Below are positions 9,000-63,922 of a DNA stretch of 64,000 nucleotides, one piece after another; position 1 is the stretch's first letter; every line of letters starts with the position of its first letter. The DNA comes from Natrinema salsiterrestre. GTDB taxonomy: Archaea > Halobacteriota > Halobacteria > Halobacteriales > Natrialbaceae. The notes under the pieces are model-generated. The model saw only the letters and a program-made list of their open reading frames with translations, was not told the DNA's origin and searched no databases. The position numbers and the translations under genes are program-made. The stretch is taken from NCBI RefSeq assembly GCF_029502005.1, contig NZ_JAMQOT010000005.1, positions 248,001-312,000 of the forward strand, written 5' to 3'.

Positions 9000-9054
9000 T
9001 GTCGGCTGGAAGTTCAGCTCCCGGAACAATAATTGTATCTGATATGTGTGGGTC

Positions 9055-9290: not shown

Positions 9291-10445
9291 GGAGTGAACC
9301 ACTCCTAGCTTCGACAACCCGCGCGATTTCACGTTCAACGCGGCGTTCCAATCCCTATCCACCTCGAACCCACATGACGGACACGAGTGCTCGCGAACCC
9401 ACAATGGTTTCTCGGTCTCCACACCACACGACGCGCATTCTTTCGTCGTCCCACATGGGTCGACTTCAACTACGTGGCAGCCGTTCTTTCGACCGTGGTG
9501 CTTGAGGATGGTGATGAAGTTACGCCACCCAACCTCAGCCTTGTTCTGCGCGTTGCCATCCGCTTCCAGCATCGACTTCACATGGAGATTCTCGACGAAC
9601 ACGGCGTCGTACGCTGTCGTGTAGAAGTGCGCGAGCTTGTGCTTGTAATCGCTCTTTTTGCTCGACATTCTCGCGTGAACCTCAGCTACTCGACGGCGTT
9701 GCTTCTCCCAGTTGTTCGACCCATGCTGCTTGCGAGAGAGCGACCGTTGCTCGCGTTCGAGTCGCTCTCGTTCTTCGGACAAGTCGAGCCGCCCGATGGA
9801 CCGACTGTCCGAGTCGTGAACAAAGTTGAGGACGCCAAGGTCGAGGCCTACGCTATCTTCAGAGCCGATGTCGTCTACATCGGGTTTCTCTGTCTCGTCG
9901 GTGCTGATGCAGAACGAGGCATACCACGCTCCCGTGGGTTCCTTCTTCACTGTGACTTCCTTGATAGCGTGGTGCTCGGGCAAGTCACGGTGGAGCCGGA
10001 TTGGAATCTCCACCGTTTCGCCGCGGATTTTCTTCAAACGGAGAATTGCTCGGTCTCTCGGGCCACTCTTTTTGTCGAGTTCGAAGCCCGATTGCCGATA
10101 CGTGAAACTCCTGTACTCACGTGGAGACTTCCAATTCAATGAGCCAACATCGTGTCCCTTGGCTTTCAGTTTGGCGAGATTGTTGATGTTGGTACGAATA
10201 CGTTCGACAGCTTTCTGTAACACGGTGGAGTAGACCCGTTTCAGGTCCGTCCACTGTTGCTTGAGTTGTGGGAGGTCGTCTCGGACTTGCCAGACTCGCT
10301 GTCGAAGCGTACCCTCGTCTTCTCGTATCTGGTTGAATTCGTACAGTGCGTGGTTGTAGACTTGTCGCACGATGTCACGGGTCCAGTCGAGACTCTCGCG
10401 CTGTTCGGTCGTTGGCAAGAGTCTGTATCGTGGACTGTACTCCAT
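9111..10445 (-). CDS. tnpB: IS1341/IS605-type TnpB, RNA-guided nuclease
   Basis: Protein of 444 aa starting at ATG 10443-10445. The N-terminal part is the helical and wedge region typical of haloarchaeal OrfB. The RuvC-like triad is intact: Asp in GLDLGVLNF near residue 203, Glu in VFVENLHVKSM near 287, and Asp in DRDWNAALN near 369. A four-Cys zinc ribbon (CASCG and CPSCG) lies between the second and third. No tnpA transposase is nearby, so it is a solo tnpB (IS1341-like). Known TnpBs cut DNA guided by an omega RNA made from the element's 3' end. The gene appears complete, so activity is possible. Confidence 0.93.
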   Translation of the reverse strand: MEYSPRYRLLPTTEQRESLDWTRDIVRQVYNHALYEFNQIREDEGTLRQRVWQVRDDLPQLKQQWTDLKRVYSTVLQKAVERIRTNINNLAKLKAKGHDVGSLNWKSPREYRSFTYRQSGFELDKKSGPRDRAILRLKKIRGETVEIPIRLHRDLPEHHAIKEVTVKKEPTGAWYASFCISTDETEKPDVDDIGSEDSVGLDLGVLNFVHDSDSRSIGRLDLSEERERLEREQRSLSRKQHGSNNWEKQRRRVAEVHARMSSKKSDYKHKLAHFYTTAYDAVFVENLHVKSMLEADGNAQNKAEVGWRNFITILKHHGRKNGCHVVEVDPCGTTKECASCGVETEKPLWVREHSCPSCGFEVDRDWNAALNVKSRGLSKLGVVHSKATSSELQCDSDGLRKSHSDFRTPVETATAVDARSVSASRVVEAGSSFLKERAAVAASE

Positions 10446-10472
10446 GCGACTTATTATCATCTATGTATTGTA

Positions 10473-10484
10473 GTTTATTAATAC
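10473..10484 (-). promoter_or_regulatory. TATA-like box upstream of tnpB
   Basis: On the tnpB strand the sequence attaataaac lies about 30-38 nt before the ATG in an AT-rich stretch. That is the spacing expected for a short-leader archaeal promoter. Confidence 0.4.
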
Positions 10485-10526
10485 CTTTGCCGAGAGTTGT
10501 TTGAGAGTCGTGCGGGCACTGTATCT

Positions 10527-10576
10527 CCGCCCTACTCGCTCGGCTTCGCCTCGCTCCTTGAGGACGGGGGCTTAGC
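10527..10576 (-). mobile_element. Remnant of another tnpB 3' tail / right end
   Basis: Read on the minus strand, this stretch encodes VLKERGEAE and resembles the last codons of the adjacent tnpB (FLKERAAVAASE plus stop). It shares the run cctcaagga-cgag and the ending gagtag. It lies upstream of the intact tnpB, where no tail belongs. The simplest reading is the scar of an earlier, deleted or excised element of the same type. It now sits next to the promoter of the aldehyde oxidoreductase gene. Confidence 0.5.
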
Positions 10577-10583
10577 GCCCTAT

Positions 10584-10592
10584 CCTTTAAGC
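10584..10592 (+). promoter_or_regulatory. TATA-like box of the aldehyde oxidoreductase gene
   Basis: The sequence ctttaagc lies 29-37 nt ahead of the ATG at 10621, which suits a leaderless or short-leader transcript. Confidence 0.4.
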
Positions 10593-10620
10593 TAAGACCC
10601 CTCGACTGCTAATGTGTATC

Positions 10621-12288
10621 ATGCTCCACGCGGACGGGCCACTGCTCACCGTCGACGTCGGTGAGCGAACTGCGACCGAGAGCACCATCGACGAAACGCT
10701 CGAGGCGGCCGTCGGCGGACGGGCCCTCGCGACCGCCCTCGCCCACGAACGGATCCCGTTCGACGCGGACCCGTTCGGCCCCGAGAACCGCGCGTATCTC
10801 GCCACGGGGCCGCTCCAGCAGTCCCGGATGTCCTTTACCGGTCGAATGAACATGACGGCCCTCTCGCCGCTGACGGACGGGCTGGTCTCGACCAACGCCG
10901 GCGGCTATCTCTCTCGGAACTTCGTCGAGACGGGGATCAGCGTCCTCGAGCTCGCCGGCGAGAGCGACGAGTTGCTGGCCGTCCACGTCACCGATCGGGG
11001 CGTCGAGTTCGAGGCAGTGCCGGAACTCGAGGGCGCGACGGTGCCCGAGACCTCCGCCTACGCGGCCGAGCATCACGACCTCGGCCCGGAGAACTGCATC
11101 GCGATCGGCCCGGCCGGCGAGAACGGGGTCCGGTTCGCCTCGGTGATGACCTTCGACTCGCGGGCGTTCGGCCGCGGCGGCCTCGGCGCCGTTCTGGGAT
11201 CGAAGAACGTCAAGTGCGTCACCTTCGAGGGGGACAGCGCGCCGCCCGTCGAGATCCCGGATCCGCCGGAGACGGACGTCCACCGGGAGGCGGCACAGTC
11301 GGACGACAGGATGCGACGGCAGGGAACGACGGGCGGCACCGAATTCATCAACGACAACTTCGCGCTTCCCACCCGCTACTTCAGCGAGTACGAGTTCGAG
11401 CACGCCGATCGGATCGGCGGCAACGCCGTCGAGGCGAAGAAGTACAAGAAGGGCGCGTGCTCGGCCTGCGCCTACGCGTGCAAGCTCCCGACTCGAGACG
11501 AGGACGCCGGCGTCGAAACTGAAGGACCCGAGTTCGAGACCGTCTACGCATTCGGCTCGAGCCAGGGCGTGGGCGACATCGTCGACGTGATGAAAGCGAA
11601 CGAGCTGTGTGACTCCCTCGGGATGGACACGATCTCGGCCGGCGTCACCGTCGCGGCCTACCTCGCGAGCGAGGACGAGTTCGGAAACGCCGAACTCGCC
11701 CGGGAGATCACCGAGAAGATCGCCTATCGGGAGGGGATCGGCGACGCGCTCGCGGAGGGCGTCGCCCGCTGCCACGACGAGCTCGGCGTCGACGACTACA
11801 CCGTCAAGGGCATGGAGTTCGCCGCCCACGACGGACGCGTCCTCCACGGCCAGGGGCTCTCCTACGCGCTCGCGAACCGGGGCGCGGACCACATGTACGC
11901 CGGCATGTTGACCCTCGAGTACAGCGGCGAACTCGACCCGGAGGGCACCCTCGGAAAGGCCGAGCGGCTCGTCCGCGAGGAGAACGCGGCGGCGTTCCGG
12001 GACACGGGCATCGTCTGCGCGTTCGGCAGCGATTACGTCACCGAGGACCGGCTGGAAGCGCTGTTCGACGCCGACTACGAGGATCTCATGGAAATCGGGG
12101 CACGAACCGTCCGCCTCGAGCGCCACTTCAACAACCGGCGGGGGTTCGACCGGAGCGACGATGGACTGCCCTACGAGATCCCCGACCTCGAGGCCGCGAT
12201 CGACGAGTATTACGCGGCCCGGGGCTGGACCGACGACGGAATCGTCCCGGACGCGGCGCTCGAGTCGGTCGCGCCGTCGGCGGATTGA
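10621..12288 (+). CDS. Tungsten-dependent aldehyde:ferredoxin oxidoreductase family protein
   Basis: Protein of 555 aa. An upstream ATG at 10612 would add three residues. The N-terminal fold binds bis-pterin (VGGRALAT near 30; TGPLQQSRMSFTGR near 65-80). FGRGGLGAVLGSKNVK near 185 is the typical AOR block. The [4Fe-4S] ligands are CSACAYAC near 283-290, with a further Cys in the C-terminal third (GIVCAFGSD). The CDSLGMDTISAG segment is the usual cofactor-contact block. Members oxidise aldehydes to acids and pass electrons to ferredoxin; the substrate here is unknown. It converges with the MoaD-like gene, which fits pterin cofactor use. Confidence 0.9.
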   Translation: MLHADGPLLTVDVGERTATESTIDETLEAAVGGRALATALAHERIPFDADPFGPENRAYLATGPLQQSRMSFTGRMNMTALSPLTDGLVSTNAGGYLSRNFVETGISVLELAGESDELLAVHVTDRGVEFEAVPELEGATVPETSAYAAEHHDLGPENCIAIGPAGENGVRFASVMTFDSRAFGRGGLGAVLGSKNVKCVTFEGDSAPPVEIPDPPETDVHREAAQSDDRMRRQGTTGGTEFINDNFALPTRYFSEYEFEHADRIGGNAVEAKKYKKGACSACAYACKLPTRDEDAGVETEGPEFETVYAFGSSQGVGDIVDVMKANELCDSLGMDTISAGVTVAAYLASEDEFGNAELAREITEKIAYREGIGDALAEGVARCHDELGVDDYTVKGMEFAAHDGRVLHGQGLSYALANRGADHMYAGMLTLEYSGELDPEGTLGKAERLVREENAAAFRDTGIVCAFGSDYVTEDRLEALFDADYEDLMEIGARTVRLERHFNNRRGFDRSDDGLPYEIPDLEAAIDEYYAARGWTDDGIVPDAALESVAPSAD

Positions 12289-34516: not shown

Positions 34517-35284
34517 ATGTCTACCCGCTCACGAAGCGGTGGCGGAGGGTTCGTCGGCGCGGTCAGAGCCGACATTCAGCGGTTACACGGGGCCTGGATG
34601 GAGATCGTCTTCCCCCGGCAACGCGGCCGCGGCCACTCCGTCATGGGCAAGTGGAAACCCGAGACGCTTCCGCAGAAGATCGGCTATCACGGCTGGAGCG
34701 TCCTCGGGATCCTCGGCCTGTTCGCCCTCTATCCGCTTACCGTCATCGGCCTCGGTACCCGCTACTACGCGGCGAAACTCGACTCGACCAGAACCAGACT
34801 GGGGATCGTCGGCGTCACGGGCGTCGCGCTACTCGGCTGGGGGCTGCTGACACTCGCATGGGGTGCGATGTCATACATGGAACAGGTCGCCATCCCCATC
34901 GATTCGGTCCTCGCCGTCGCAGCGGCGAGCGGCGTCGCGACGGTATCGACCGCACTCGCGGCGACGACATCGAAGGTCGGCGGCCGCGGTACGACGGTCG
35001 GTCTCGCTTACCCCTTCGCGATGACGGCGCTGTTCCTGCCACCCGTCGTCGCCGCGCTCGTCACCCCGTCGCTGCATCCCTACGTCCTCGATCCCAGCTA
35101 CGACTTCGCCGTCTGGGTCCTCGACAACGTGTTGTTCGTCGGCGGCGTCAGCGAGTACCTCCGATCGAACTTCACCCTCGAGGGAGCCGCCTACGCCGCG
35201 ATGTGGGTCGGCATCTCCTTCCCGCTGGGGTGGTTCCTCGGCGGCGTCGTCACGCTGGCGAATCTCGTTCGACCCTCGGAGTAG
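34517..35284 (+). CDS. Integral membrane protein, 255 aa
   Basis: ATG 34517. After a basic, Gly/Arg-rich N-terminus (RSGGGGF, then ERGRG-type segment) come about five hydrophobic helices (about 62-82, 96-118, 126-148, 165-188 and 225-250). No transporter or enzyme motif is recognised. It is a haloarchaeal hypothetical. Confidence 0.6.
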   Translation: MSTRSRSGGGGFVGAVRADIQRLHGAWMEIVFPRQRGRGHSVMGKWKPETLPQKIGYHGWSVLGILGLFALYPLTVIGLGTRYYAAKLDSTRTRLGIVGVTGVALLGWGLLTLAWGAMSYMEQVAIPIDSVLAVAAASGVATVSTALAATTSKVGGRGTTVGLAYPFAMTALFLPPVVAALVTPSLHPYVLDPSYDFAVWVLDNVLFVGGVSEYLRSNFTLEGAAYAAMWVGISFPLGWFLGGVVTLANLVRPSE

Positions 35285-35374
35285 TCTCGTCGCTGCGTTT
35301 CTGTTTCGGTCAACACTCGTGAACGGACTGCCGATTCCCGATATCATTAGGGGCCTCCTTCCTAACGGCCGCAT

Positions 35375-35566
35375 ATGGAGTTCGACCTTCCGAAGACTGC
35401 AGCCGTGTTCGTCGTCGTGATTGCGATCGGTGTCGGCGGCTTGATCGGTATGGACGTGATGCCGATGAACGTCATGTTGATGATGGTCGCACCGTCGATG
35501 ATCGCGTTCGGGTTGCTCATGCTCGTCCTCGGTGTCAAACACGGCGAGTACCGAACCGCTCACTGA
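35375..35566 (+). CDS. Small two-helix membrane protein, 63 aa
   Basis: ATG 35375. Two hydrophobic helices (about 7-27 and 30-52) are linked by a Met-rich turn (MDVMPMNVMLMM), with a short polar tail. The gene lies 90 nt after the 255-aa membrane protein on the same strand. No function is known to me, though small proteins of this shape are frequent in haloarchaea. Confidence 0.6.
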   Translation: MEFDLPKTAAVFVVVIAIGVGGLIGMDVMPMNVMLMMVAPSMIAFGLLMLVLGVKHGEYRTAH

Positions 35567-35756
35567 CTCGGTATCCGACGTACCGCCTCGACCGCTCGAA
35601 TCGGTTCGAGAAACACCGCGACGGCGGCGTCCTGACCGTCGATCGGGCCGCTGAAATCGATCCAGAGCGTACGATTTCTCCGTTAGCTACGCCGTTCCAA
35701 CGTGACCTACCCCTTCCCGCGACAGAAATGCAATCGATTTCCGTCGTTGACCGTCG

Positions 35757-36602
35757 TTACTCACCCCACACTCGCCAGTAAAAATCGCTATGCGGAATGT
35801 CCGATCCGGGTTCGTAGTTTCTGTTACTCCGCACCTGAACGCATGCATTGATCTGTTGTGGGCTACTCCACGAACTCCAGAAACCGGTCGCGTCTTTCAG
35901 TTCGACGGTGACGTGTCCGGCGTCGTCGACATTCACACTTTTGTTGTGTTGGTAGGTTTCGCTCGTCGATGCCTGACCCGAAATCCCGACCGTTCCACCC
36001 GGCGTCGAGATGTCGAAACCGACGTCGGCCGTATCCCCTTTATTGACTCGAGAAGACGGTGAGAAGTCCGTCACCTCGACGCTACCGTCAGTGACGTCTA
36101 ACTTGCTTCTGATCGCCCCGAGTTGCCAGATCGTCTGCGGTTTTCCGTTCGACCACATCCAGAAGAAGTAGATTCGCTTGTCCGATTCGGCCCTGTATTC
36201 GCCCCGATACATCGAAAGCGTGTTTTCGACTTTACCCATCACATCGTTCCCGGGACAGCAGGTGACGTCGTACTCCAGATTCCAGCCACCGACCCAGCCG
36301 AGATTGGTCGTATCGATGTCCGCGCTCTGTGTTCCGATCTCATCCGAAGAGGCTGCCGTCGGAACGATATCACGTGCGGGGATATCGTACTCCTCGGCTT
36401 TCTCTTCGGCGTACGTGATCATCTCGTCTTCGGATAGCATATTCTCTCCGGACAGTTCTAGTGCCGCGCCGTCCGAATCCGAGAGTTCGTCCCGTCTGTC
36501 GGAGGCGTCGTTCGAATCGACCGTCGCGCCAGCGACGGTTCCGCTGATGAAACTTCCAGTCAGTGCTGTCCCAGCCGCCGTCAAGAGAGTCCGTTTTCTC
36601 AT
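35757..36602 (-). CDS. Exported orphan protein with Cys-Cys motif, 281 aa
   Basis: Start ATG 36600-36602. The N-terminus (MRKRTLLTAAGTALTG followed by Ser/Gly/Ala) is a signal peptide, probably Tat-type given the basic KR pair. The mature part has an acidic linker, then a beta-rich domain from about residue 95: LGWVGGWNLEYDVTCCPG, KRIYFFWMWSNGKPQTIWQ, and an aromatic C-terminus (FWSSWSSPQQ, FYWRVWG). The Cys pair and a later single Cys could form disulfides. Base composition is lower in GC than the neighbours and the upstream region is AT-rich. It resembles no family I recognise; an exported toxin or adhesin is only a guess. Confidence 0.55.
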   Translation of the reverse strand: MRKRTLLTAAGTALTGSFISGTVAGATVDSNDASDRRDELSDSDGAALELSGENMLSEDEMITYAEEKAEEYDIPARDIVPTAASSDEIGTQSADIDTTNLGWVGGWNLEYDVTCCPGNDVMGKVENTLSMYRGEYRAESDKRIYFFWMWSNGKPQTIWQLGAIRSKLDVTDGSVEVTDFSPSSRVNKGDTADVGFDISTPGGTVGISGQASTSETYQHNKSVNVDDAGHVTVELKDATGFWSSWSSPQQINACVQVRSNRNYEPGSDIPHSDFYWRVWGE

Positions 36603-36837
36603 GTCTGCATCTGCTTCTTAGTTACTGTAATTTAATATTTCTACTAATATTATCAAATACTGATGTAGCTTCAAAACTACATATAGGAAGGCGTGGATAC
36701 GACGGGAAAGCAATGCTACGGCAACGAGACTACCGGAAATCAGAGGGCCTGAAACGGACTACTGATAGCGGTACTTACGACGCAAAAATACGATACCGAT
36801 CAATGATCGGCGAACTGTAAGTCGATCGATCGGCAGC

Positions 36838-37809
36838 TTACATGTAGCCGAGGTCGCGCAGGCGCTCCATCAGGTCCTCCTTGTCCTGGGCGCGGCCGGC
36901 GCGCTCGGTGGTTCCCTCGAGGTCCTGCAGCCAGGCGGGGTCCTCGGTGTTCTTTTCGGTGCTGATCTCGCTGCCGAGCGAGCGGAAGCCGGCGAAGTAC
37001 TTCGGCGAGATCGGGACGTCGTCCTGGTCGACGCCCTCGGGGAGGTCGTCGTCGGCTTCGGGGACGTAGCCCTCCTCGGGGAAGTTCTCGACGGTGTCCG
37101 GCACCACGAAGTTCCAGAAGGCCTCCCACACTGCGGCCTCGTCGAACTGCAGGATGGGCTGGATGCGGTCGTGGGGCGGGTAGATGTCGGGATCGTGGCG
37201 CGGCGAGAAGAACGTCTCGTCGGCGCGGGCCTCCTGCTCGTCCCAGCGGACGCCGGAGATGACGCCGTCGATATCGTACTCCTCGAGCGCGTCGTTGAGC
37301 GCGACCGTCTTCAGCAGGTGGTTGCCGACGTAGGTGTCGAGCAGGAACGGGAACGTGTCCTCCTCGTACTCGAGGATGTCCCGGACGTGGTGCTGATTGT
37401 GCTCGGAGAGCTCGGAGATGTCGATGTCGTCGCCGGGCTCGAGGCCGTGTTCGTCGACGTACTCGCCGATGTCCTCGTTGCGCGCGTAGATTACCTCGAG
37501 GTCCCACTCGTCGGCCCAGTGGTCGACGAAGTCGTGGATCTCGTCGAAGTGCTGGTAGTGGTCGATGAACACTGCGGGCGGTACCTCGAGGTCGAAGCGG
37601 TCCGCGACCTCCTTGATGAAGTACAGCGTGAGCGTCGAGTCCTTGCCGCCGGTCCACATGACCGCCGGGTTCTCGTACTCCTCGAGGCCCTCGCGGGTGA
37701 CCTCGATCGCCTTCTCGATCTTGTCCTGAATGTGCTGGTAATCGACGGGGTCTTCGCCGGTACCGTCGTCGTAATCGACGTCGACGTACTCTGGGAAGTT
37801 CTCGGTCAT
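36838..37809 (-). CDS. Phosphoadenosine-phosphosulfate reductase-family protein
   Basis: Protein of 323 aa, start ATG 37807-37809. The PP-loop is VMWTGGKDSTLTLY near residue 52 (SGGxDS class, Ser replaced by Thr). Substrate-side features include ISGVRWDEQEARADETFFSPRHDP near 185. No Cys is present that could form the ECGLH-type active site of true PAPS reductase. CysD-like sulfate adenylyltransferase or another PP-loop ATP-pyrophosphatase role is therefore possible. Acidic tail as usual. Confidence 0.8.
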   Translation of the reverse strand: MTENFPEYVDVDYDDGTGEDPVDYQHIQDKIEKAIEVTREGLEEYENPAVMWTGGKDSTLTLYFIKEVADRFDLEVPPAVFIDHYQHFDEIHDFVDHWADEWDLEVIYARNEDIGEYVDEHGLEPGDDIDISELSEHNQHHVRDILEYEEDTFPFLLDTYVGNHLLKTVALNDALEEYDIDGVISGVRWDEQEARADETFFSPRHDPDIYPPHDRIQPILQFDEAAVWEAFWNFVVPDTVENFPEEGYVPEADDDLPEGVDQDDVPISPKYFAGFRSLGSEISTEKNTEDPAWLQDLEGTTERAGRAQDKEDLMERLRDLGYM

Positions 37810-51230: not shown

Positions 51231-52121
51231 ATGACTGACGAGACCGAGACCGCGAAGGCGGGCTGGTTTTCCGATCTGGACTCGGGGGATCTCGAGGCCG
51301 CCGAGGACGCGATTACGGAGGGCGAAGCTAAAGCGCCGCGCGAGTGGCCGGCCATCGCCGTCGAGTCCGGCTACACCGACTCGAGGGACGAATACTACGA
51401 TCGGCTGCATGAGGCGACGATGACCGCGACTCGAGCGGAGGTGCGCGAGCGCGAGCGGGCGGACGATCAGCAGCTGGTTCACGCGATCAGGGCGATGGAC
51501 GACTGCAGTCGGACGGCGAACGAACTCGCGGAACGGCTGGCGGAGTGGGCCGGCACCGTCGACCCCGACGCCGGGACCGGCGTCGAGTACGCGCGCACGC
51601 TGGCTCGCGGGGAGAGCGAAGACGGACTCGAGGAGCCCGCGATCCGCTCGCTGGCCGAACGGGTGGCGGGCCTCGCGGACGAGGCCGACGAGCTTCGGGA
51701 GTTCGTCGAGCGCCAGACGCCGGCCGTCGCGCCGAACCTCTCGGCGCTGGCCGAGCCGGTGCTGGCGGCGCGGCTGATCTCCCTCGCCGGGGGACTCGAG
51801 GAGCTCGCGAAGAAGCCCAGCGGGACGGTGCAGGTCCTCGGCGCGGAGGACGCGCTGTTCGCCCACCTGCGGGGGCACGCGCCGTCGCCCAAGCACGGGA
51901 TCATCTACACGCACGACGCGGTGCGGGGGACCCACCCCGAGAATCGGGGCTCGGCGGCGCGTGCAGTGGCCGGCAAGCTCTCGATCGCGGCCCGCGTCGA
52001 TCACTACTCGGGCGAGTTGAAACCCGAACTCGAGGCCGAACTCACAGAACGGATCGAGACGATTCAGGCCCGGACGACGGACGAGGACGTCGACAGCGAC
52101 GGAGGTGCGGACGATGAGTGA
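51231..52121 (+). CDS. NOP5/NOP56 core protein of box C/D RNP
   Basis: Protein of 296 aa, start ATG 51231. The C-terminal NOP domain has PNLSALAEPVLAARLISLAGGLEELAKKPSGTVQVLGAE near 165-205 and HGIIYTHDAVRG near 220, the rRNA-contact block. It scaffolds fibrillarin on box C/D sRNAs for 2'-O-methylation. Eukaryotic-length N-terminal coiled coil is reduced. The gene overlaps fibrillarin by 8 nt, so expression is linked. Confidence 0.94.
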   Translation: MTDETETAKAGWFSDLDSGDLEAAEDAITEGEAKAPREWPAIAVESGYTDSRDEYYDRLHEATMTATRAEVRERERADDQQLVHAIRAMDDCSRTANELAERLAEWAGTVDPDAGTGVEYARTLARGESEDGLEEPAIRSLAERVAGLADEADELREFVERQTPAVAPNLSALAEPVLAARLISLAGGLEELAKKPSGTVQVLGAEDALFAHLRGHAPSPKHGIIYTHDAVRGTHPENRGSAARAVAGKLSIAARVDHYSGELKPELEAELTERIETIQARTTDEDVDSDGGADDE

Positions 52122-52749
52122 ACAGCTTCCCGAGGGAGTCCAGCGCCGCGAATTCGACGGGACCGAGCGACTCGCGACGCGAGGGGAGCCGGTCTACGGC
52201 GAGCCGACGGACGGCGAGTGGCGCGCGTGGAACCCCCACCGATCGAAGCTGGGTGCCATGCTCGAGCTGGGGATGGACACCGCCCTCTCGGGGGGCGAAA
52301 CGGTCCTCTATCTGGGTGCGGCGAGCGGGACGACCGTGAGCCACGTCGCGGATTTCGCCGGGCCGACCTACGCGGTGGAGTTCGCCCCGCGGCCGGTCCG
52401 GGACCTGCTCTCCGCCGCTGAATCGCGCGAGCGGCTCTTTCCGCTCCTGAAGGACGCCCGGAAGCCCGCGACCTACGCCCACGTCGTCGAGTCGGACGTG
52501 GACGTGCTCGTGCAGGACGTGGCGACGCGGGGGCAGGCGCGGGTGGCGCTCGAGAACCGGCAGTTCCTAGCCGACGACGGGCGGTTGTTGTTGGCGGTGA
52601 AGGCGCGAAGTGAGGACGTGACTCGAGAGCCAGAAACTGTGTTCGAGGACGTTCGCGAGGAGTTGTCAGAGGGGTACGAGGTGCTAGAGGCGCGGCGGCT
52701 CGAGGAGTATCACGCGGATCATCTCGGGATCGTGGCGCGGCCGCGTTGA
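52114..52749 (+). CDS. flpA: Fibrillarin, rRNA/tRNA 2'-O-methyltransferase
   Basis: Protein of 211 aa from ATG 52114; a GTG at 52105 is less likely. The SAM fold has VLYLGAASGTTVSHVAD near residue 67, YAVEFAPRPVRDLL near 90 and the VDVLVQDVATRGQA segment near 130. It methylates ribose O2' guided by box C/D RNA together with NOP5, which directly precedes and overlaps it. Confidence 0.95.
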   Translation: MSEQLPEGVQRREFDGTERLATRGEPVYGEPTDGEWRAWNPHRSKLGAMLELGMDTALSGGETVLYLGAASGTTVSHVADFAGPTYAVEFAPRPVRDLLSAAESRERLFPLLKDARKPATYAHVVESDVDVLVQDVATRGQARVALENRQFLADDGRLLLAVKARSEDVTREPETVFEDVREELSEGYEVLEARRLEEYHADHLGIVARPR

Positions 52750-53141
52750 GTTTGGGTATCTCCTAAATTAGATACTATCCGTAAGGTTCAAATAATTGGA
52801 TAGAAAAGATAGGAGGGAACCAATCCTCTTCGGGTGGAGGCTTTTCGCCCGTAAATCTCCACGACCGTAGAGAGTTACTTTACAGAATTTGGTTTTGAAG
52901 CCTGTCATAGCTTGGAAGATACATTCTAACTTGGTTCTGACCTGATAAAAAGAACGTATTCTGCTCCACATCAAAAACCCCTCGGCGAGTGTCCCCAAGG
53001 GGACTGAGCTAAAAAATTACACCGCCCCTGCCACAGCCTCCGCAATCTCCAGTTGAATCACATGTAATAGGGGTGGGCGATATGGGTCTATCCGCGGCAT
53101 TTTTGGTATTGATTTTAAATATATTTCCTTATATGAAACTT
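52750..53141. other. AT-rich left part of an island, no firm gene
   Basis: Composition falls sharply right after fibrillarin. A minus-strand open frame (52768-52998, 76 aa, basic and Lys-rich) has no start signal or family that I can support and may be a transposase remnant. Around 52979-53002 the arms cccct and agggg frame a small hairpin. Confidence 0.35.
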
Positions 53142-53897
53142 TCATTTCATACCTTCATCATACAGATCGGAGTGTTCGATCGACGCATCAACATTGTATT
53201 CATCAACTATGTCTGTGACCAAATCACTAAACCAGTCTGGAGATGTTGGTGACACATAAACAGCGTCTATCAATGAGTCAACATCAACAGAGACATATTC
53301 CCCACTAGGAAGATCACTTAGCGGTGTTTGACCATCTTCCGTGATTACATCCCATCGTGCAAATACAAACCTAATCTCATTTTCATGCTCAAAGCTTCGG
53401 CGTTTAAAAAATGCAGGTGATAACAGGTTGTTTTCGGGCAGTAATATGTCATCATAGTCTACATAATGGACCTTGCCAGATATGATTGAATGCTGTGACT
53501 CATCAAATGCGGACTTCACTTGTTCTGGAGTAGACCTTACCGCAATGCCTTGATCATTACTTAAATACAGGTCCCACATCGCGGCCGATTGATAGTCATT
53601 TTCATGCCAACAATTAGCAAATGTGATGGATTTCGACAATTGGAGAAAATCTGTGATTTCTTTTACTTTATTTTGGGGTATCTCTGTGTCTGCGTATCGG
53701 TCTTGGATGGTTGAATAGTTGTTGTCCGGTACTTTGCCCTCAAAAGGATCTTCAAACTGATCAACTCTATTGAACCACATAGATTTATTTTGCAAAATAG
53801 AAATAAATTGAGTGAAATCCATATATCGCCAAATAAACTGGTCAGGATTTGGTTTTTGAATTGACCATCGATCTTGACTATCATTTTCAGCAGTCAT
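53142..53897 (-). CDS. DUF2971 family protein
   Basis: Protein of 251 aa from ATG 53895-53897. The body fits DUF2971: an N-terminal segment with FNRVDQFEDPFEG near 43, CWHENDYQSAAMWDLY near 95-110 and FKRRSFEHENEIRFVF near 165-180. The gene is AT-rich, unlike its neighbours, and probably acquired horizontally. DUF2971 is common in mobile and defence-rich regions but has no settled activity; a nuclease-like or abortive role is only a possibility. Confidence 0.8.
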   Translation of the reverse strand: MTAENDSQDRWSIQKPNPDQFIWRYMDFTQFISILQNKSMWFNRVDQFEDPFEGKVPDNNYSTIQDRYADTEIPQNKVKEITDFLQLSKSITFANCWHENDYQSAAMWDLYLSNDQGIAVRSTPEQVKSAFDESQHSIISGKVHYVDYDDILLPENNLLSPAFFKRRSFEHENEIRFVFARWDVITEDGQTPLSDLPSGEYVSVDVDSLIDAVYVSPTSPDWFSDLVTDIVDEYNVDASIEHSDLYDEGMK

Positions 53898-54143
53898 TAA
53901 GCATCCTATGGACCTGCTCGAATACAAAACCCCCAGAGGTTCCATGTAGACTGAACCCGATTCTCAAATATGCACACAAGATTGCACTCGCTGTGTGTAT
54001 AATCGAATCTATCCGCTTCTTGGATCGCCGTCTTTTTTCCAAATTGGTTGATGTGTTCCGCCAATCTAAGGTGAAAATAGACCATTCAGACAGTCGAAAA
54101 ACTAGTATTCTCGGACTCCTGTGTACGTGTTTGTGAATTAGAG

Positions 54144-54287
54144 CTAGCCTGATTCCTCTTCGACCTCTTCAACTTCGTCAAGTAGCTCAGTTATTACATC
54201 GTCAAAACTATCGCCTGGATCTTTCCGCAGAGTAAGCCGCTTCCAGGTTTCCGTAGAAACGGTTACTGTCGTTGTCTCATCGGCCAT
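54144..54287 (-). CDS. 47-aa antitoxin-like ribbon-helix-helix protein
   Basis: ATG at 54285-54287 begins MADETTTVTVSTETWKRL, and TAG is at 54144-54146. The TVTVxxETWKRL-x4-KxPGDSFDDVITELL pattern is that of short archaeal VapB-type antitoxins. No PIN or other toxin gene is next to it, so it may be an orphan or act on a distant toxin. It lies in the same AT-rich island as the DUF2971 gene. Confidence 0.7.
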   Translation of the reverse strand: MADETTTVTVSTETWKRLTLRKDPGDSFDDVITELLDEVEEVEEESG

Positions 54288-54488
54288 AGAGCCACTATGA
54301 AACCCTGATCTCAAAGTTTTGCGTATATCATGATATGACTTTTCTACTATACGATGGTTTTATTGAGTCATGAGATAATGAAATAGATGAGGAGCTAAAC
54401 ACGGACCTATCTCTCAGGTCTTGAACCAGCGGACCGGTGCTGAGACACCGAGTCCGCGAGAAGCTCCCGAAATCCACCTCCGGAAGCC

Positions 54489-54998
54489 ATGTTAGACGAC
54501 AATTCGCGGGACCTTCAAAACCCCGCTCGAGCAGATGCATCACCCCCAACTAACGACCCACCCCGGTCTGACGGCAGTGAGCCGAGTGAAACGAACCGAT
54601 CTGCGTCAGACCTCCGTGCTGACGGGAGCACCACCTGGATCGGCCTCACCGCCTTCCAGCGCGACTGTCTCGAGGCGGTCGCCCGCTGTGACCACACGAG
54701 CGAGACCACCGACGAGCGCGCGCTTACGTACGCCCTCGAGTACGCCTACCCCTACATCGACTACGCCCAGCTCCAATCGAATCTGGCCACGCTCGTCGCC
54801 CACGAGCTGGTCACCAGCCGGCGAGTCGATGAATCGACGAGCGAGTACACCCCCACCGACGCGGGGCGCGCGCTGGTGGCGCGGCGCGCCACCCAGCTCG
54901 CGGCCGCCTGCGGCGTCGCGATCGGGGACCGCTCCGCCGCGGAGCTCGAGGCGCTCGAGGACGCGGCCGCCCCGCCGAAATGCGAGCGGGACGGATGA
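54489..54998 (+). CDS. PadR-like winged-helix regulator
   Basis: Protein of 169 aa, start ATG 54489. A disordered polar N-terminus (about 1-48) precedes a winged helix: LTAFQRDCLEAVARC near 52, a helical stretch, then LVTSRRVDESTSEYTPTDAGRALV near 110. The C-terminus is helical. The form is that of haloarchaeal PadR-type DNA-binding proteins. Its stop overlaps the ATG of the zinc-ribbon gene by 3-4 nt. Confidence 0.7.
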   Translation: MLDDNSRDLQNPARADASPPTNDPPRSDGSEPSETNRSASDLRADGSTTWIGLTAFQRDCLEAVARCDHTSETTDERALTYALEYAYPYIDYAQLQSNLATLVAHELVTSRRVDESTSEYTPTDAGRALVARRATQLAAACGVAIGDRSAAELEALEDAAAPPKCERDG

Positions 54999-55135
54999 CC
55001 GGGGCTCGAGGCGAGGATCCGATACGCTGTCCCGACTGCGGCGCGGTGATCCCCGAACGCGACCCGCTGATCGGCTGGTGGCTCTGCGACGATTGTACGG
55101 TCGCCGTCACCGACGACGGCACGCGGATCGCGTGA
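54995..55135 (+). CDS. 46-aa zinc-ribbon protein
   Basis: Starts ATG 54995 within the previous gene's stop (ATGA), so the two are probably translationally coupled. Cys pairs CPDC and CDDC flank the ERDPLIGWWL segment. A decayed copy of this gene lies at 55484-55573. Confidence 0.75.
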   Translation: MTGARGEDPIRCPDCGAVIPERDPLIGWWLCDDCTVAVTDDGTRIA

Positions 55136-55483: not shown

Positions 55484-55573
55484 GTTACGTTCGAACGCGA
55501 CCCGCTGATCGGCTGGTAGCTTTGCGACGACTGCGTGCTCGCGGTCGACGAGGACGGGACGCGAGTCACCTGA
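55484..55573 (+). pseudogene. Decayed second copy of the zinc-ribbon gene
   Basis: The frame reads VTFERDPLIGW, a TAG stop, then LCDDCVLAVDEDGTRVT and TGA. It is clearly related to ERDPLIGWWLCDDC of the gene at 54995, with the second Trp replaced by a stop and the 5' part with the first Cys pair gone. Segmental duplication followed by decay is the simplest reading. Confidence 0.75.
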
Positions 55574-56989: not shown

Positions 56990-58583
56990 ATGTCAGAACA
57001 CCCCACGATAGGAGACACGCTCGAGCAGACGGTCGATCGCCACCCCGAGCGCGACGCGATCGTCTATCCGCGGAAGGACCAGCGGTGGACCTACGCGGAA
57101 TTCGATAACCGAGTCGATCGGCTGGCGAACGCCTTCCTCGAGGCCGGCATCGAAAAGGGAGATCGGGTCGCGACGGTGCTGTACAACGGGTCGGAGATGG
57201 CCCTTACCGTCTACGCGTGCGCGAAAATCGGGGCCGTCTTCACCCCGCTGAACTTCCGGCTGCCGGCGGGCGAGATCGAGTACATCGTCGACGACGCCGA
57301 GGCCGAGATGGTACTCTTCGAGGCCGCGACGCGGGAGGCGGTCGAGGGCGCGACCGAACCTCGAGACCGTCGGCGACTACGTCTTCATCGACGACGACCG
57401 CGAGGACGTGCCGGACTACGCGAGCGGGTTCTACGAGCTGCTCGAGTCGGGCTCCCCCGACCGGCCCGACGTTCGCGTCGACGAAGACGACGTCTACGCG
57501 TTCATCTACACGTCGGGGACGACGGGTCGGCCGAAGGGCGTCGTCCACGAACACCGGAACATGGTCGAGCACAACCTCCTGTGTATCGCGGAGGGAAGGA
57601 TTACGCGGGACGACGTCGGCCTGTCAGTGATGCCGCTGTATCACTGCGCCGAACTCCACTGCAACCTCTTCCCGCGGGTTCACCGCGGCGCGACCAGCGT
57701 CATCCACCACGAGTTCGACCCCCGGGCGGCCCTCGAGGCGGTGGAGGAGCACGACGTCACGCTCCTCTTCGCGGCGCCGACCGCGTGGAACGCGCTGTCG
57801 ATGACCGCCGCCGAACTGGACGTCGACGCGTCCTCGCTCCGACTCGGGCTGTACGGCGCGGCCCCGATGCCCGAACAGGTCCTCGAGAACTGTCGGGAAC
57901 ACCTCTGCGAGGACTACCTGCAGGCCTACGGGATGACCGAGATCGGCCCCGCCGGCGTCTTTCAGCCGCCGGAGGACCAGCTCTCGAAACAGGGAACCGC
58001 CGGGTTGCCCGCGCTCAACCACGAACTTCGCATCGTCGAGCCCGACGCGGACCCCGATCGAGAGGTCGATCGCGGCGAGATCGGCGAGATCCTGATCGCC
58101 AGTCCGTGTACGATGCGGGAGTACTGGAACCGGCCCGAGGCGACCGAGCGGTCGCTGCGCGAGGCCGACGGCACGACGTGGTACTACACCGGCGACCTGG
58201 GATACCGCGACGAGGACGGCTACCTCACCGTCGTCGACCGGAAGGACGACATGATCGTCTCCGGCGGCGAGAACATCTATCCCGCCGCCGTCGAGGACGT
58301 CCTGTTCGCACACGACGGGGTCGACGAAGCGGCCGTCGTCGGCGAGCCCGACGACGAGTGGGGGGAGCTCGTCACCGCCTACGTCGTCGCCGACGACGGC
58401 GTCGACGCGGCCGCGCTCGACTCGTTCCTCCTCGAGAGCGACCGGCTCGCCGATTTCAAGCGACCGCGGACGTACTACTTCGTCGACGACCTCCCCAAGA
58501 ACCCCAGCGGCAAGATCCAGAAGTTCAAACTCCGCGAGGACGAGGCGGACCTCGAGCCCGAGGCCGAAACCGTCGCGTCCTGA
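56990..58583 (+). pseudogene. Frameshifted AMP-forming acyl-CoA ligase
   Basis: The N-terminal part (from ATG 56990: IGDTLEQTVDRHPERDAIVYP, EIEYIVDDAEAEMVLFEAATR) stays in frame until about 57358, then the reading shifts by one base. The rest continues in a second frame through 58583 as a normal ANL enzyme: FIYTSGTTGRPKGVVHEHRN near 57505, the QAYGMTEIGP motif, TGDLGYRDEDGYLTVVDRKDDM, and the catalytic Lys in [11 protein letters not shown] at the end. The joined protein would be about 530 aa, full length. A real mutation, a sequencing error or programmed slippage are all possible; the sequence shown cannot make one chain. Confidence 0.85.
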
Positions 58584-58671
58584 TCGGCACCGTCGGGACA
58601 CCGGCCCGACGTTCCGGCCGAACGCTCCGACTCCAAACCGTATTTACTATCGGGGCCGAAAGCTGGGCACG

Positions 58672-59757
58672 ATGGAACGCGGGTCCCGAGAATCGTTCAC
58701 GCGCATGGGTACGTTGGGGATCGAGGAGGAGTGCTTCGTCGTCGACGAGGACGGCCGCCCCACCAGCGGGACCGACGAACTCGTCTACGAACACGATCCG
58801 CCGGAGATCCTCGAGGGGCGGCTGGATCACGAACTGTTCAAGTTCGTCATCGAGACCCAGACGCCGCTGATCGAAGAGCCCGGCGACGCCCGCGACTCGC
58901 TGCTCGCGATCCGGCGGGCGCTTCTCGAACACGCCGAAAATTACGGCTACCGGATATCGGCCGCCGGCCTCCACCCGCTCGCGAAGTGGCGCGAACTCGA
59001 GCACGCGGAGAAACCGCGGTACCGCTCGCAACTCGATCGCATCCAGTATCCACAGCATCGGAACACGACGGCGGGCGTCCACGTCCACGTCGGCGTCGAC
59101 GACGCGGACAAGGCGGTCTGGATCGCCAACGAACTCCGATGGTACGTGCCGATCATGCTCGCGCTGTCGGCGAACTCGCCGTATTGGAACGGCTTCGACA
59201 CCGGCCTCCAGTCCGCCCGCGCGAAGATTTTCGAGGCGCTTCCCAACACCGGGATGCCCACCTACTTCGAAGATTTCGAGGCGTTCGACCGGTTCGAGCG
59301 ACGGATGCTCGAGACCGAATCGATCAACGACCGGGGCGAACTCTGGTACGACGTGCGCCCGCACACGGCTCACGGCACGGTCGAACTCCGAACGCCGGAC
59401 GGACAGGCCGATCCCGAAATCGTGCTGGCGTTCGTCGAGTACGCCCACGCGCTCGTCGAGGCGCTGGCCGAGGCCTACGAGGACGGGACGAGCGGGCACC
59501 GCCACCGCCGGGAACTGCTCGACGAAAACAAGTGGCGGGCCATCCGCTACGGGCAGGACGCCTCCTTCATCGACCGCGAACTCGAGGGGACCGTCGACCT
59601 GGGCGAACTCGTCGACCGCGAGTGCGAGCGGCTGGGAATCGACGGCATCAAGCGCGTCTACGAGCGCGAGAGCGGCGCGGATCGACAGCGACGGTTGCTC
59701 GAGGAGGACGGGGCGGACGCGCTGTGCGAATCGCTGTTCCTGCGAGACGAGGTGTAG
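58672..59757 (+). CDS. gshA: Glutamate-cysteine ligase, archaeal GshA
   Basis: Protein of 361 aa, start ATG 58672. It begins the GCS2-type fold with [17 protein letters not shown] near 13-28, and has [14 protein letters not shown] near 136 and [21 protein letters not shown] near 165. [10 protein letters not shown] is present near 243. Haloarchaea make gamma-glutamylcysteine as their main thiol rather than glutathione, and this enzyme forms it from glutamate, cysteine and ATP. Confidence 0.92.
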
Positions 59758-60695: not shown

Positions 60696-61823
60696 TCACT
60701 CCGCCTCGAGTTCGAGGATCTCGGGTCGCTCGAGTTCGAGGTCCCGATCGACCGCCTCGACGGTCGTCGTCGGCCAGCGGTCCGTCGCCGTCAGGACCTC
60801 GAGTTCGTCGTCGGTGACGAGGACCGTGTCCTCGCTTTTCGCGCCCCGGACGGTCGGGTTCCACGCGTAGGCCATCGGCGTTTCGACGGTGGCATCGTGC
60901 TCCGGCGTGGCGATCCACTCCCGGCCGGCGAAGCCAGCGGCCCCGCCCTGATGGTGGTGTTCCCACTCGCCCTCGTAGCCGACTCCGTCGTAGGCGTTCT
61001 GGATGGCGGCGAAGACGTCGCCTGCGGTGCCGTCGCTTCCGTCCCCACGCCGTTCGTTCGTCGCCTCCGCCCGGGTCGCCGCCAGCGCCGTCGCCTCGAC
61101 GCGAGCGGCGGCTTCGTGGCGCTCAGCGAGCCACGACGGCGGATCGAAGGCGACGGTACGGGTACAGCTCGCGTGAAGCCCGGCCCGCTGGGCGGTCACG
61201 GAGACGAGCGCGTAGTCGCCGAGTTCGGCCTCGGTCGGCGTGTAGTGGCGGTACTGCTGGGCGCGTTCCGATCCACCCACGAGCACGACGGGGGCTTCGA
61301 TGTCCCGCGCCGAGAGGGCGATCCGCAGGGCGGAGGCCACTTCGTGTTCCGTATCTCCCGACTGGAGTTCCCGGCAGACCGCCTCGACGGCCGACGCCGT
61401 CTGCTCGCCGAGTTCGCGATACCGCTCTCGGTCCCGCTCGGTCAGCGGTTGACGAAGTGCGGTCGGATCGACCTCTTCGAAGCCGGGGATCTCGACGTCC
61501 GCTGCGGCCCGTTCCTCGCTCCCGACGGCGTCTTCGATCGCGTCCGCCAGGGACGACGCGTACCAGGGAAACCGCTCGACCGAGACCTCGTCGGACTCGA
61601 GGTCGGGGAGCTCTTCGGCCGCGATGCGATCGGCTTCGATATTGTTCGTCACGAGAGTGAAGTCGTCGCCGTCGTACCCGACTGCAGCGACGCCGGTATC
61701 GCCCTCCCGATCGATCACGCTGTTGCCGCCGGTGAGCCACGCAAACGAGTTCGGGCGGGCGAACCAGACCGAGTCGAGATCGTGGGACTCGAGGAAGGCC
61801 TCGAGTCGCTCGCGTTTGTCCAT
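60696..61823 (-). CDS. M24-family peptidase homologue lacking expected metal ligands
   Basis: Protein of 375 aa from ATG 61821-61823. Creatinase-type N-terminal part (LDSVWFARPNSFAWLTGG near 16-33) and pita-bread C-terminal part. In M24 enzymes two Asp occur in a DxGAxxxGYxSDxTRT segment; here the equivalent segment is LVSVTAQRAGLHASCTRTV, with Ser at both positions. Late His residues (EHHHQGG) and Glu are partly kept. It may be a non-metal member like creatinase, or non-catalytic. Reaction unknown. Confidence 0.72.
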   Translation of the reverse strand: MDKRERLEAFLESHDLDSVWFARPNSFAWLTGGNSVIDREGDTGVAAVGYDGDDFTLVTNNIEADRIAAEELPDLESDEVSVERFPWYASSLADAIEDAVGSEERAAADVEIPGFEEVDPTALRQPLTERDRERYRELGEQTASAVEAVCRELQSGDTEHEVASALRIALSARDIEAPVVLVGGSERAQQYRHYTPTEAELGDYALVSVTAQRAGLHASCTRTVAFDPPSWLAERHEAAARVEATALAATRAEATNERRGDGSDGTAGDVFAAIQNAYDGVGYEGEWEHHHQGGAAGFAGREWIATPEHDATVETPMAYAWNPTVRGAKSEDTVLVTDDELEVLTATDRWPTTTVEAVDRDLELERPEILELEAE

Positions 61824-62185
61824 GTCAGGTGCTGGCGAGGGCGACTCTTGAATGCGGCGAACACTGAGCCGTCGGCCGCTCCCGGACCCGTCCGAGCCCG
61901 TCGGCACGTGGCTCGAGTAACAGGTCGGACGCCGATACGCGACTCCCGACCGGGGTGATTCGATGCGGGTCGATAAAAACAGGCAGTTTCGGGAAACTAC
62001 CGATTCCCGTCGCGATACGAGTCGACTCTCGATTCGGCTCTCACCTCCCGTTCCATCGAACCGACTCGTTCGAATCCGCGATCAGGGCCGTTTCGATCGC
62101 GTATAGATCCATTAATTAAAATATATATTTTTGTGATAGCTACGGTGAAATTCAAGTAACAGGGAATGAAATCGACCCTATCGAA
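61824..62185. other. 362-bp divergent intergenic region, AT-rich at its right end
   Basis: Promoters of the M24 gene (leftward) and the MBL gene (rightward) must lie here. The right part (62108-62140, taattaaaatatatattttt) is the most AT-rich stretch near the end of the window, about 50-75 nt before the ATG at 62186. No gene seen. Confidence 0.45.
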
Positions 62186-63922
62186 ATGCGGGCATCGTAT
62201 CAAAACGCAAATATTCGCGGAGGGAACGAGTCGACGCTCCTCCGATTTACGACCGACGATGGAACGCGGGCCTGCATTCTCGTCGACGCCGGTGACGGCG
62301 TCGATCTCGATTCGTTGCTCGCGGACGACGAATATCTAAGCGCCGTCCTTCTCACGCACGCACACATCGACCACTACCGGACGCTCACCAGAAACGTTCG
62401 ACACAGCGCGCCGATTTATGCGACGCCGGCGACGGCGACCGTTCTCGAGCACGCACTGCCGGAAGCGCGGAAGGACAACGACCTCGGCGACGTCTCCGCC
62501 GCCCTCGATGCGCTCGAGCCGATCGACGACTGGACGTCGATCCTCCACGACCTCGAGGTGCGGCCGGTCAGTGCCGGCCATACACCCGGTGGGGCGGGCT
62601 TCGTAATTCGCTTTTACGACGAGAACGGAAGCGGCGAACTCCTGAACGGCGAACGGCACGTTTTGATAACGGGAGATTTCACGACGCGCCCCTGTGCGGG
62701 GTTTCCGGGACTGGAATCGAACTACCCGTTCGATATCGATACCGTGTTTCTGAACGCGTCGACCGAGGACTCCTATCCGACCGCGCTCAACGATTCGATA
62801 CAGACGATTCTCGAGCGGGCGTACGCCGGCTCTCGAGTCGTCGTCGCCACGAGCTCGTTGACCGGCGTTCAGTACGCGACGCTGTTGCGACACGTCACGG
62901 CAGCGCTCGATCGCGACCTTCCGATTACGCTCGTCGGACAGGCGGCCAAACTCCACAACGGACTCGAGTTGGACAGTTCCGGTATCGACACGCGGGAAGT
63001 GTTCGACCGACCCGCGGCAGTACTCGAGAGCGGCCGCGTGACGATCTGCGGTCCCGATACGCCGACGCGAGGCAGCGCGTCTCGACTCCTGGGTGCGATC
63101 GAGGACGATCCCGCCGGGGTCTTTCTCCAGATCGCGACGGGAAGCGCCGAGACGGTTTCGAACGTGCGCTGTACGACGCGGTACGTCGAACTCCGGAACC
63201 ACCCCGCCGCGGAAACGATCGACGAGTTCGTCCGCGATCTCGCTCCGAGGCACGTCGTGGTCAAGCACGCGCGGGGAGAGACGCTCAAGCGATTCCAGCG
63301 TCGCTTCGATCACTGTTTCACGTGGGGGACGAACGACGAGGAGATCCACCGCTTCTACCGGGACGGAGAGTGGCTCGCTCCCGGATGGATCGCCGAGACC
63401 ACCGCGAGACAGATCCGAACGAACAGACGGGCTCTCGTCCGGGACCAGCCGTTCGATGCCGACGGGACGTTGCCGCCCGTTCGGCGGGGACCGGTCGACC
63501 TCGACGCGGAAGGCATCGATCTCGACCCGCTCGAGAACGCCTTTCGTAGCACATCGAAAGACCCCTACGCGGCTTCGGATACGGATGCGACACCCGCGGA
63601 TATCGAGGCTGCGACCACGCCCGCCGATACCGACGTAGAGACGGCAGCTGCCGATCCAGCGATGAATCGGGGAGGGGGTGACGGCGACGGGTCGGTCGAG
63701 GCGGAACTCCTCGAGCGGCTCGAGGATATCGAAGCGAAGCTGGATTCTTCGGACGAAACCGTTCGGGCACGCGTTCTCACTGACGGAGACAGCGAGCAGT
63801 TCCTGCGGCTACTGGAACGGGCCGACGTCGACGCGGGGGACGTAGTCGAGATCGCGATCTCTCGATCGGGCACCGAATCCGAGTCCGAGTCTGAGTCTGA
63901 GTCTGAGTCTGAGTCTGAGTAG
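62186..63922 (+). CDS. MBL-fold, beta-CASP-type hydrolase with long acidic tail
   Basis: Protein of 578 aa, start ATG 62186. MBL motif HAHIDHYR near residue 58 supplies HxHxDH, with His in VSAGHTPGG near 131 and Asp in LITGDFTTRP near 160. A beta-CASP-like insert follows, and NHPAAETIDEFVRDLAPRHVVVKHARGE near 336-363 resembles motifs B and C of RNase J/CPSF nucleases. After residue 400 comes a charged helical region and finally an (ES)n tail. Nuclease or RNA-processing role is suggested by family only. Confidence 0.7.
   Translation: MRASYQNANIRGGNESTLLRFTTDDGTRACILVDAGDGVDLDSLLADDEYLSAVLLTHAHIDHYRTLTRNVRHSAPIYATPATATVLEHALPEARKDNDLGDVSAALDALEPIDDWTSILHDLEVRPVSAGHTPGGAGFVIRFYDENGSGELLNGERHVLITGDFTTRPCAGFPGLESNYPFDIDTVFLNASTEDSYPTALNDSIQTILERAYAGSRVVVATSSLTGVQYATLLRHVTAALDRDLPITLVGQAAKLHNGLELDSSGIDTREVFDRPAAVLESGRVTICGPDTPTRGSASRLLGAIEDDPAGVFLQIATGSAETVSNVRCTTRYVELRNHPAAETIDEFVRDLAPRHVVVKHARGETLKRFQRRFDHCFTWGTNDEEIHRFYRDGEWLAPGWIAETTARQIRTNRRALVRDQPFDADGTLPPVRRGPVDLDAEGIDLDPLENAFRSTSKDPYAASDTDATPADIEAATTPADTDVETAAADPAMNRGGGDGDGSVEAELLERLEDIEAKLDSSDETVRARVLTDGDSEQFLRLLERADVDAGDVVEIAISRSGTESESESESESESESE
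63878..63920 (+). repeat. 6-bp microsatellite encoding (Glu-Ser)n
   Basis: Tandem gagtct/gagtcc units at the end of the MBL gene encode alternating Glu and Ser just before the stop. A hexanucleotide unit keeps the frame as copy number changes, so length can vary between strains. Confidence 0.75.

Follow-up and report, generated by a model that had tools for sequence, protein, structure and literature searches.

A probable relic of a viral accessory-gene slot with a gene for a predicted DarT-like fold protein in Natrinema salsiterrestre

Positions 52978 to 54142 of the 64-kb stretch of DNA analysed here (the window, the coordinates of which are used throughout) are probably what is left of a slot for accessory genes in a replicon of the betapleolipovirus (Rep-Arvir/DUF7845) type. 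On the left, the slot would be bounded by the rolling-circle origin hairpin of that replicon, which is apparent from its sequence and takes its presumed function from the literature on SNJ2; on the right, it would be bounded by a palindrome that precedes a viral DUF7692 gene. In relatives, the genes between these borders have been exchanged as a block, in either orientation. The slot of the window holds one gene, the product of which is predicted to adopt an ADP-ribosyltransferase fold like that of the DNA-modifying toxin DarT and may be an enzyme of this kind; the VapB-like, PadR-like and Zn-ribbon genes to the right of the slot most likely form a separate module.

Composition and chromosomal location

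The left chromosomal neighbour is the fibrillarin gene flpA (52105 to 52749, plus strand; Pfam PF01269, 3.6e-56), which was found in all 29 genomes of the genus, Natrinema as delimited by GTDB. Between this gene and the slot lies an AT-rich stretch (52750 to 52988, unstranded) without recognised features and without a border match. The preliminary description had proposed an AT-rich island at 52750 to 54488 that contains a DUF2971 gene and a VapB-like gene. The sharp drop in composition is real: the GC content is 0.418 at 52750 to 52988, 0.404 at 52989 to 54003 and 0.470 at 54144 to 54488, versus 0.653 in the rest of the window. The lowest value among 239 outside segments of 1 kb is 0.535, and the island lies about 7.8 standard deviations under their mean. 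Both genes are present, as revealed by matches to Pfam, PADLOC and phrog profiles. The DUF2971-like gene is foreign and patchily distributed; proteins like its product were found in 50 of the 391 haloarchaeal genomes sampled, 8 of the 21 genus members listed among them, and the comparison at the fibrillarin boundary that had been suggested disclosed no counterpart at this site in any of the 28 other genus genomes. One island comprising both genes, with its right edge at the PadR-like gene, had to be abandoned, as the module of the VapB-like gene recurs separately elsewhere. The surmise of a small defence or selfish locus is strengthened by the mobile-element borders and by the assignment of the DUF2971-like protein to a defence-candidate family (PADLOC PDC-S31), whereas the grouping of the two genes is lost.

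The region between fibrillarin and the PadR-like gene is variable: the interval 3' of fibrillarin, read in 18 of the 28 relatives, varies in length and in content among the ORFs listed. When the island DNA (52750 to 54170) was searched against the 29 genus genomes, its counterparts consisted of two border repeats and a few short weak patches. Searching the ends of the island for target-site duplications and direct repeats yielded short, chance-like repeats and nothing more. An ORF at 52768 to 52998 was ruled out as a transposase relic, having no family match. ARAGORN calls a tRNA-Pro(cgg) at 51660 to 51754, within the Nop5 gene; the call is probably false, with no Rfam match there, and tRNA-Pro was dismissed as an integration site. 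Three smaller GC dips (0.50 to 0.58) occur at 9000 to 10700, 35250 to 37000 and 61750 to 62500, and an AMP-ligase-like gene at 56990 to 58870 is apparently split over two frames (ORFs 56990 to 58870 and 57408 to 58583), possibly by a frameshift or a sequencing error.

The border sequences

The two repeated stretches (52973 to 53083 and 53930 to 54142) flank the DUF2971-like gene and are found in 24 of the 29 genus genomes, including that of the window. Other copies enclose unrelated AT-rich genes, in both orientations. The left border block, delimited by the search of the genus DNA (52978 to 53083, plus strand), comprises a hairpin and about 90 conserved bp (ATTACA...CCAGTTGA); in the window, similarity sets in some 11 nt ahead of the hairpin, and nhmmer recognises the block there (E value 7e-21) when the window is left out of the model. 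The hairpin, GTGTCCCCAAGGGGAC (52989 to 53004, plus strand), is a predicted rolling-circle origin nick hairpin of the betapleolipovirus/Rep-Arvir type, here without rep. Its 16-mer has one exact match in the window, with 0.06 matches expected when up to two mismatches are allowed. Stem pair 6-13 alternates between C-G (21 of 42 aligned copies) and G-C (17 copies), and in an alignment of 15 distinct rows, representing 40 copies, 93.3% of the cells are paired versus 28-56% when the partner is slid. The covariation is of modest support because its score is reached by 8 of 500 shuffles and the signal stems from a single covarying pair.

The right border core (53918 to 54003, plus strand), identified through genus-wide repeats and nhmmer (E value 1.7e-11, again with a model built without the window), contains a palindrome of about 30 bp. 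In the window it reads AATATGCACACAAG...CTGTGTGTATAAT; the consensus is GAATATGCACACGAG-N6-CTCGTGTGCATATC. It is followed by the degraded remains of a viral DUF7692 gene (54004 to 54142, plus strand), namely its leader and initial codons, which were recognised by alignment and by blastn, with 66-68% identity to loci L212 and L209 up to the DUF7692 start.

The order and orientation of the two borders are constant across the genus. For 33 of the 42 left ends in the loci retrieved, a right core follows within 7 kb downstream on that strand; for one left end it lies upstream, and in no case does it lie on the opposite strand. The first 20 loci (L209-L228) were chosen partly for matching both borders; in the second batch (L234-L253), a right core was found for 12 of 18 left ends. 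The left block is present in 84 of the 391 sampled genomes of the class, 77 of which belong to the family of the window.

These data bear on a simpler explanation, the transfer of a single gene from a low-GC donor into an intergenic site, where the flanking repeats would be older, unrelated debris. As might follow from such a transfer, the identity of the cargo protein to a Bacillaceae homologue (37%) approaches that to its best archaeal match (43%). However, the repeats lie within about 65 bp and 20 bp of the gene, in the same order and orientation as around other cargo, and a transfer of this kind appears quite improbable.

Relation to betapleolipovirus replicons

A DUF7845 rolling-circle rep gene precedes the hairpin in 19 of 36 copies, with the hairpin mostly about 180 bp from the rep end. 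The DUF7845 protein matches the Reps of the pleolipoviruses HRPV-3/9/10-13, HGPV-1, HHPV-3/4 and SNJ2, as well as phrog_3288, and genes beyond the slot belong to phrog_1979, 3526 and 2231. Replication of SNJ2 depends on the hairpin downstream of rep, in which a change that preserves the stem is tolerated whereas a change of the loop is not (passages of PMC13107129). The SNJ2 sequence displays the same GTGT-stem-YAAG-stem-A plan after rep as the hairpin of the genus, and the Rep-Arvir module of this betapleolipovirus shares an upstream inverted repeat with the rep-bearing genus copies (PMC13107129, in part). SNJ2 likewise carries a gene (gp18) between the origin and the NTPase. What is common to the hairpins is the plan; the 16-mer of the window has no match with up to three mismatches in the fetched stretch of SNJ2. 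By analogy with SNJ2, the hairpin may once have been an active origin.

In the window, the Rep-Arvir origin stem-loop is recognised only by its sequence plan and its homology to rep-bearing copies. The upstream inverted repeat and the rep gene are both absent, the whole 64-kb window contains no DUF7845 match and the ORFs of the island no viral structural match. A betapleolipovirus provirus would possess rep (DUF7845), NTPase and spike genes; the window retains a relic only. The lack of rep, inverted repeat and any structural gene, and the low identity of the leader, argue against the proposed relic. The passages of PMC13107129 that were searched describe neither copies with a hairpin and no rep, as in the window and elsewhere, nor cargo of this kind.

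Exchange of the slot content

The ends of the slot are most clearly delineated by copies that lack rep. Among 14 of these, the mean pairwise identity is 0.28-0.29 across the 40 nt that precede the hairpin, whereas the two blocks of 20 nt from the hairpin onward reach 0.85 and 0.73. At the other end, the mean among ten copies is 0.79 and then 0.61 across the final 40 nt of the right core and 0.30 past it. At one orthologous site with the same outer flanks, the interior measures 264 bp in genome G002 and 234 bp in G012, where the slot is empty, and 1.05 kb in G017, where it is occupied by an insert that encodes a 300-aa protein with an RNxxxH motif, which we take to be HEPN-like. Locus L238 of genome G009 has 1265 bp in common with G019 (92.7% identity) from a point 3 nt ahead of the hairpin, and the DNA upstream is unrelated; the right flank of L238 is common to G014:C40 (90%) and L237 (92%) from inside the palindrome outward. 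Comparison of the sequences establishes the borders, their viral origin by homology and the exchange of content in relatives.

The exchange could proceed in two ways. IS91 and Helitron elements copy and move a segment by a rolling-circle mechanism. Similarly, the hairpin might be the start of a nick and the palindrome the stop, so that a Rep-Arvir protein acting in trans copies and moves the segment between them. The exact left end common to the 14 rep-less copies and the defined right end are in keeping with such cassettes, as are tandem copies in L214 and L234, a copy adjoining ordinary genes (for example, a HAD-hydrolase-like gene in L238) and the cargo common to G009 and G019 that ends at the hairpin. 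Yet neither a circular intermediate nor a duplication was seen, the flanks reveal no insertion-site consensus, and some rep-less copies have upstream DNA in common, which fits ordinary recombination between modular replicons; the upstream DNA that could be compared is short in L227, L239, L235 and L217. Mobilisation by Rep is regarded as unlikely, and exchange through homologous recombination at the conserved borders is favoured over Rep-driven rolling-circle copying. It is with considerable reserve that we propose haloarchaeal cassettes, bounded by the Rep-Arvir hairpin and the palindrome, that the Rep of a resident virus mobilises in trans. If they exist, such cassettes would encode neither transposase nor integrase themselves and would distribute single defence-like genes (KAP/PifA, CARF, OLD, GmrSD, DarT-like ART) over chromosomes, plasmids and proviruses. 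The slot raises the question, open to direct testing, of host genes being carried in trans by the rolling-circle Rep of a virus. A description of an origin-bounded slot was not encountered in the abstracts and passages that made up the literature searched.

The tandem origin-hairpin slots of L214 and L234 contain separate cargo in each slot. In another genus (L043, 1483 to 3585), a slot that encloses different cargo has a DUF2971-like gene immediately beyond its right border.

The cargo protein of the window

The cargo gene is encoded on the minus strand at 53142 to 53897, within an ORF that extends to 53945 (267 aa), and its assignment is derived from PADLOC, an AF2 model and the resemblance to DarT. 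Translation more likely starts at M17 (53897) than at the first ATG, because residues 1-20 have a pLDDT below 50 and the right border extends over the first 16 codons. The Pfam family DUF2971 (PF11185) matches with 17.7 bits (E value 0.0093), under the curated cut-off of 22, so that the protein is termed DUF2971-like; among 60 aligned relatives, 49 match DUF2971 at E values of 0.01 or less. Stronger matches were obtained with phrog_34615 (2.6e-60) and with the defence-candidate family PADLOC PDC-S31 (PDLC04993; 2.1e-25, residues 28-263 of 267). Identity to the window protein is at most 43% over the full length in 24 aligned relatives. In two gammaproteobacterial loci (L143, 7497 to 8660, and L149, 7497 to 8648), a DUF2971-like domain follows an N-terminal extension of about 120-150 residues.

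A sequence search of the PDB revealed no relative, the best match (E value 0.74) being unrelated. The AF2 model computed from 60 sequences has a pLDDT of 90.3 and a pTM of 0.86. In a Foldseek search of the PDB with this model, the top six matches are all DarT (E values of 1.9e-4 to 4e-3, TM 0.34-0.38), followed by non-significant others that include Tpt1/KptA. VIA yields Z scores of 8.1 for DarT, 6.8 for Tpt1, 5.2 for SopF and 4.4 for pierisin, with CteC also among the next rows; by its own caution, a Z near 8 can reflect a common arrangement. The rows of both searches with the predicted structure are mostly ADP-ribosyltransferases, with DarT first. Six matches at E values of 0.001 or less in a viral library are phage proteins that are uncharacterised, unnamed or, in one case, contain an ASCH domain. 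All 14 columns invariant in the 60 relatives are kept in the window protein; they include W39, D66, E69, W113, K181, H187, E188, E190 and R192.

The cargo product is confidently predicted to have an ADP-ribosyltransferase fold, the closest solved structure being DarT of DarTG (7omv, 7yk3), and judging from the model it may transfer ADP-ribose. Against the assignment to DarT stands the purely structural nature of the similarity, with an identity of about 10%. In contrast to DarT, the protein has no DarG macrodomain partner: no macrodomain match was found among the neighbouring ORFs scanned. The conserved WRY, DPFEG and HE-x-E-x-R residues are those of the cargo family itself and differ from DarT. 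For the PDC-S31 and phrog_34615 families, which the window protein matches, the libraries give no mechanism; a predicted fold and a genomic setting are supplied here. DUF2971, a family of unknown function, would gain a predicted enzyme fold with testable residues. In the literature searched, in part as abstracts and passages, a single paper names DUF2971 and the fold is apparently unreported; the search turned up no data on infection for a protein of this family.

Possible functions of the cargo

The cargo of the slot in other genomes provides a context. Pfam families were tallied for 61 proteins (60 cargo proteins and that of the window), of which the window protein and 20 others were scanned singly with PADLOC. 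Six of these 20 match at 1e-5 or less, namely a PifA/KAP protein, a CARF3 protein, an OLD/AriA-like protein, the two ORFs of one DUF262/GmrSD-type pair and a methyltransferase; therefore, the slot holds real defence-type families. An enrichment is not demonstrated by 6 of 20 cargo versus 2 of 10 control proteins, both of the latter being housekeeping proteins (a CDC48-type ATPase and fibrillarin). The Pfam tallies also include GmrSD_N, Mrr_cat, KAP, N6 methylase and transposases.

The likeliest reading is that the virus carried the cargo as a single-gene effector that excludes competing viruses, and that the host kept the gene after the virus decayed, a scenario to which we assign slightly less than an even chance. 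The effector would act by NAD-dependent modification of nucleic acid or of another essential target, and could protect the lysogen or host against other viruses. Alternatively, the enzyme might serve the virus itself, in counter-defence or host take-over, as does AcrIF11, an anti-CRISPR ADP-ribosyltransferase. Homologues in 24 IMG/VR contigs, retrieved by an alignment search after a single-protein search of viral contigs had found nothing, and in one Acinetobacter phage would suit this role, as would the existence of anti-CRISPR proteins with an ART fold (passages of PMC12421852). Other slot cargo resembles anti-phage families, however, and PADLOC classes PDC-S31 as a defence candidate, which makes a virus-serving enzyme rather doubtful.

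An anti-virus effector would have parallels. The P2/P4 defence hotspots likewise have fixed flanks in small temperate elements and rotating antiviral genes (PMC9122126, in part); the slot differs in being archaeal, in having a rolling-circle origin hairpin as one border and in occurring also without rep. The pleolipovirus HHPV4 possesses the restriction endonuclease HHPV4I, an antiviral-type accessory gene of a betapleolipovirus as here, which according to the passages of PMC10101028 is gene 6 of HHPV4 and not among the genes between Rep and NTPase. With the slot, haloarchaea would gain a defined site of accessory genes, and two short sequence models could be used to collect candidate anti-virus genes. 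In bacteria, the P2/P4 hotspots have reportedly been mined for such genes.

The VapB-like gene and its partners

The VapB-like/DUF7557 protein of 47 aa (54144 to 54287, minus strand; PF02697, 7e-7; PF24434 DUF7557, 2.4e-6) is encoded just beyond the slot. Its partner is a winged-helix protein of 169 aa (54489 to 54998, plus strand) with sub-threshold wHTH matches, the end of which is overlapped by the gene of a 51-aa Zn-ribbon protein (54980 to 55135, plus strand; CPDC...CDDC motif read directly). The name PadR-like is justified as far as the winged helix is concerned, whereas the PadR score is 13.3 bits against a cut-off of 27. The PadR-like/Zn-ribbon pair also occurs in L121 and L124.

ART toxins often need antitoxins, as in DarTG, and the VapB-like gene lies next to the DUF2971-like gene and is read from the same strand. 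A toxin-antitoxin pair made up of the two is nevertheless very improbable and was rejected: they are separate modules with the viral right border between them, and five further genus genomes contain the VapB-like gene, with 83-93% identity, at places where no DUF2971 gene is near. In four of these five it is divergent to a PadR-like gene; G009 retains the VapB-like gene only. The segment from the VapB-like gene through the intergenic region to the first PadR-like codons (54166 to 54525) is 75-76% identical in G005, G007 and G014 and 68% in G013, where the copies adjoin the same kind of partner away from fibrillarin. Because it recurs elsewhere beside the same winged-helix/Zn-ribbon pair, the VapB-like gene is not considered cargo together with the DUF2971-like gene. 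At other fibrillarin loci, a winged-helix-like gene of 86-89 aa takes its place among the ORFs listed.

The earlier statement that no toxin adjoins the VapB-like gene is correct, as no PIN gene lies beside it and the adjacent PIN-domain toxin of a VapBC system is missing. The suggested search for a PIN toxin elsewhere gave 11 matches in the genome, none of them on this contig. The VapB-like gene need not be an antitoxin; from the recurrent arrangement, the VapB-like and PadR-like genes are better read as a putative small regulator pair than as an orphan antitoxin and its neighbour. At 55492 to 55573, the 3' half of the Zn-ribbon gene is repeated in degenerate form; this second copy matches the Zn-ribbon genes of several relatives.
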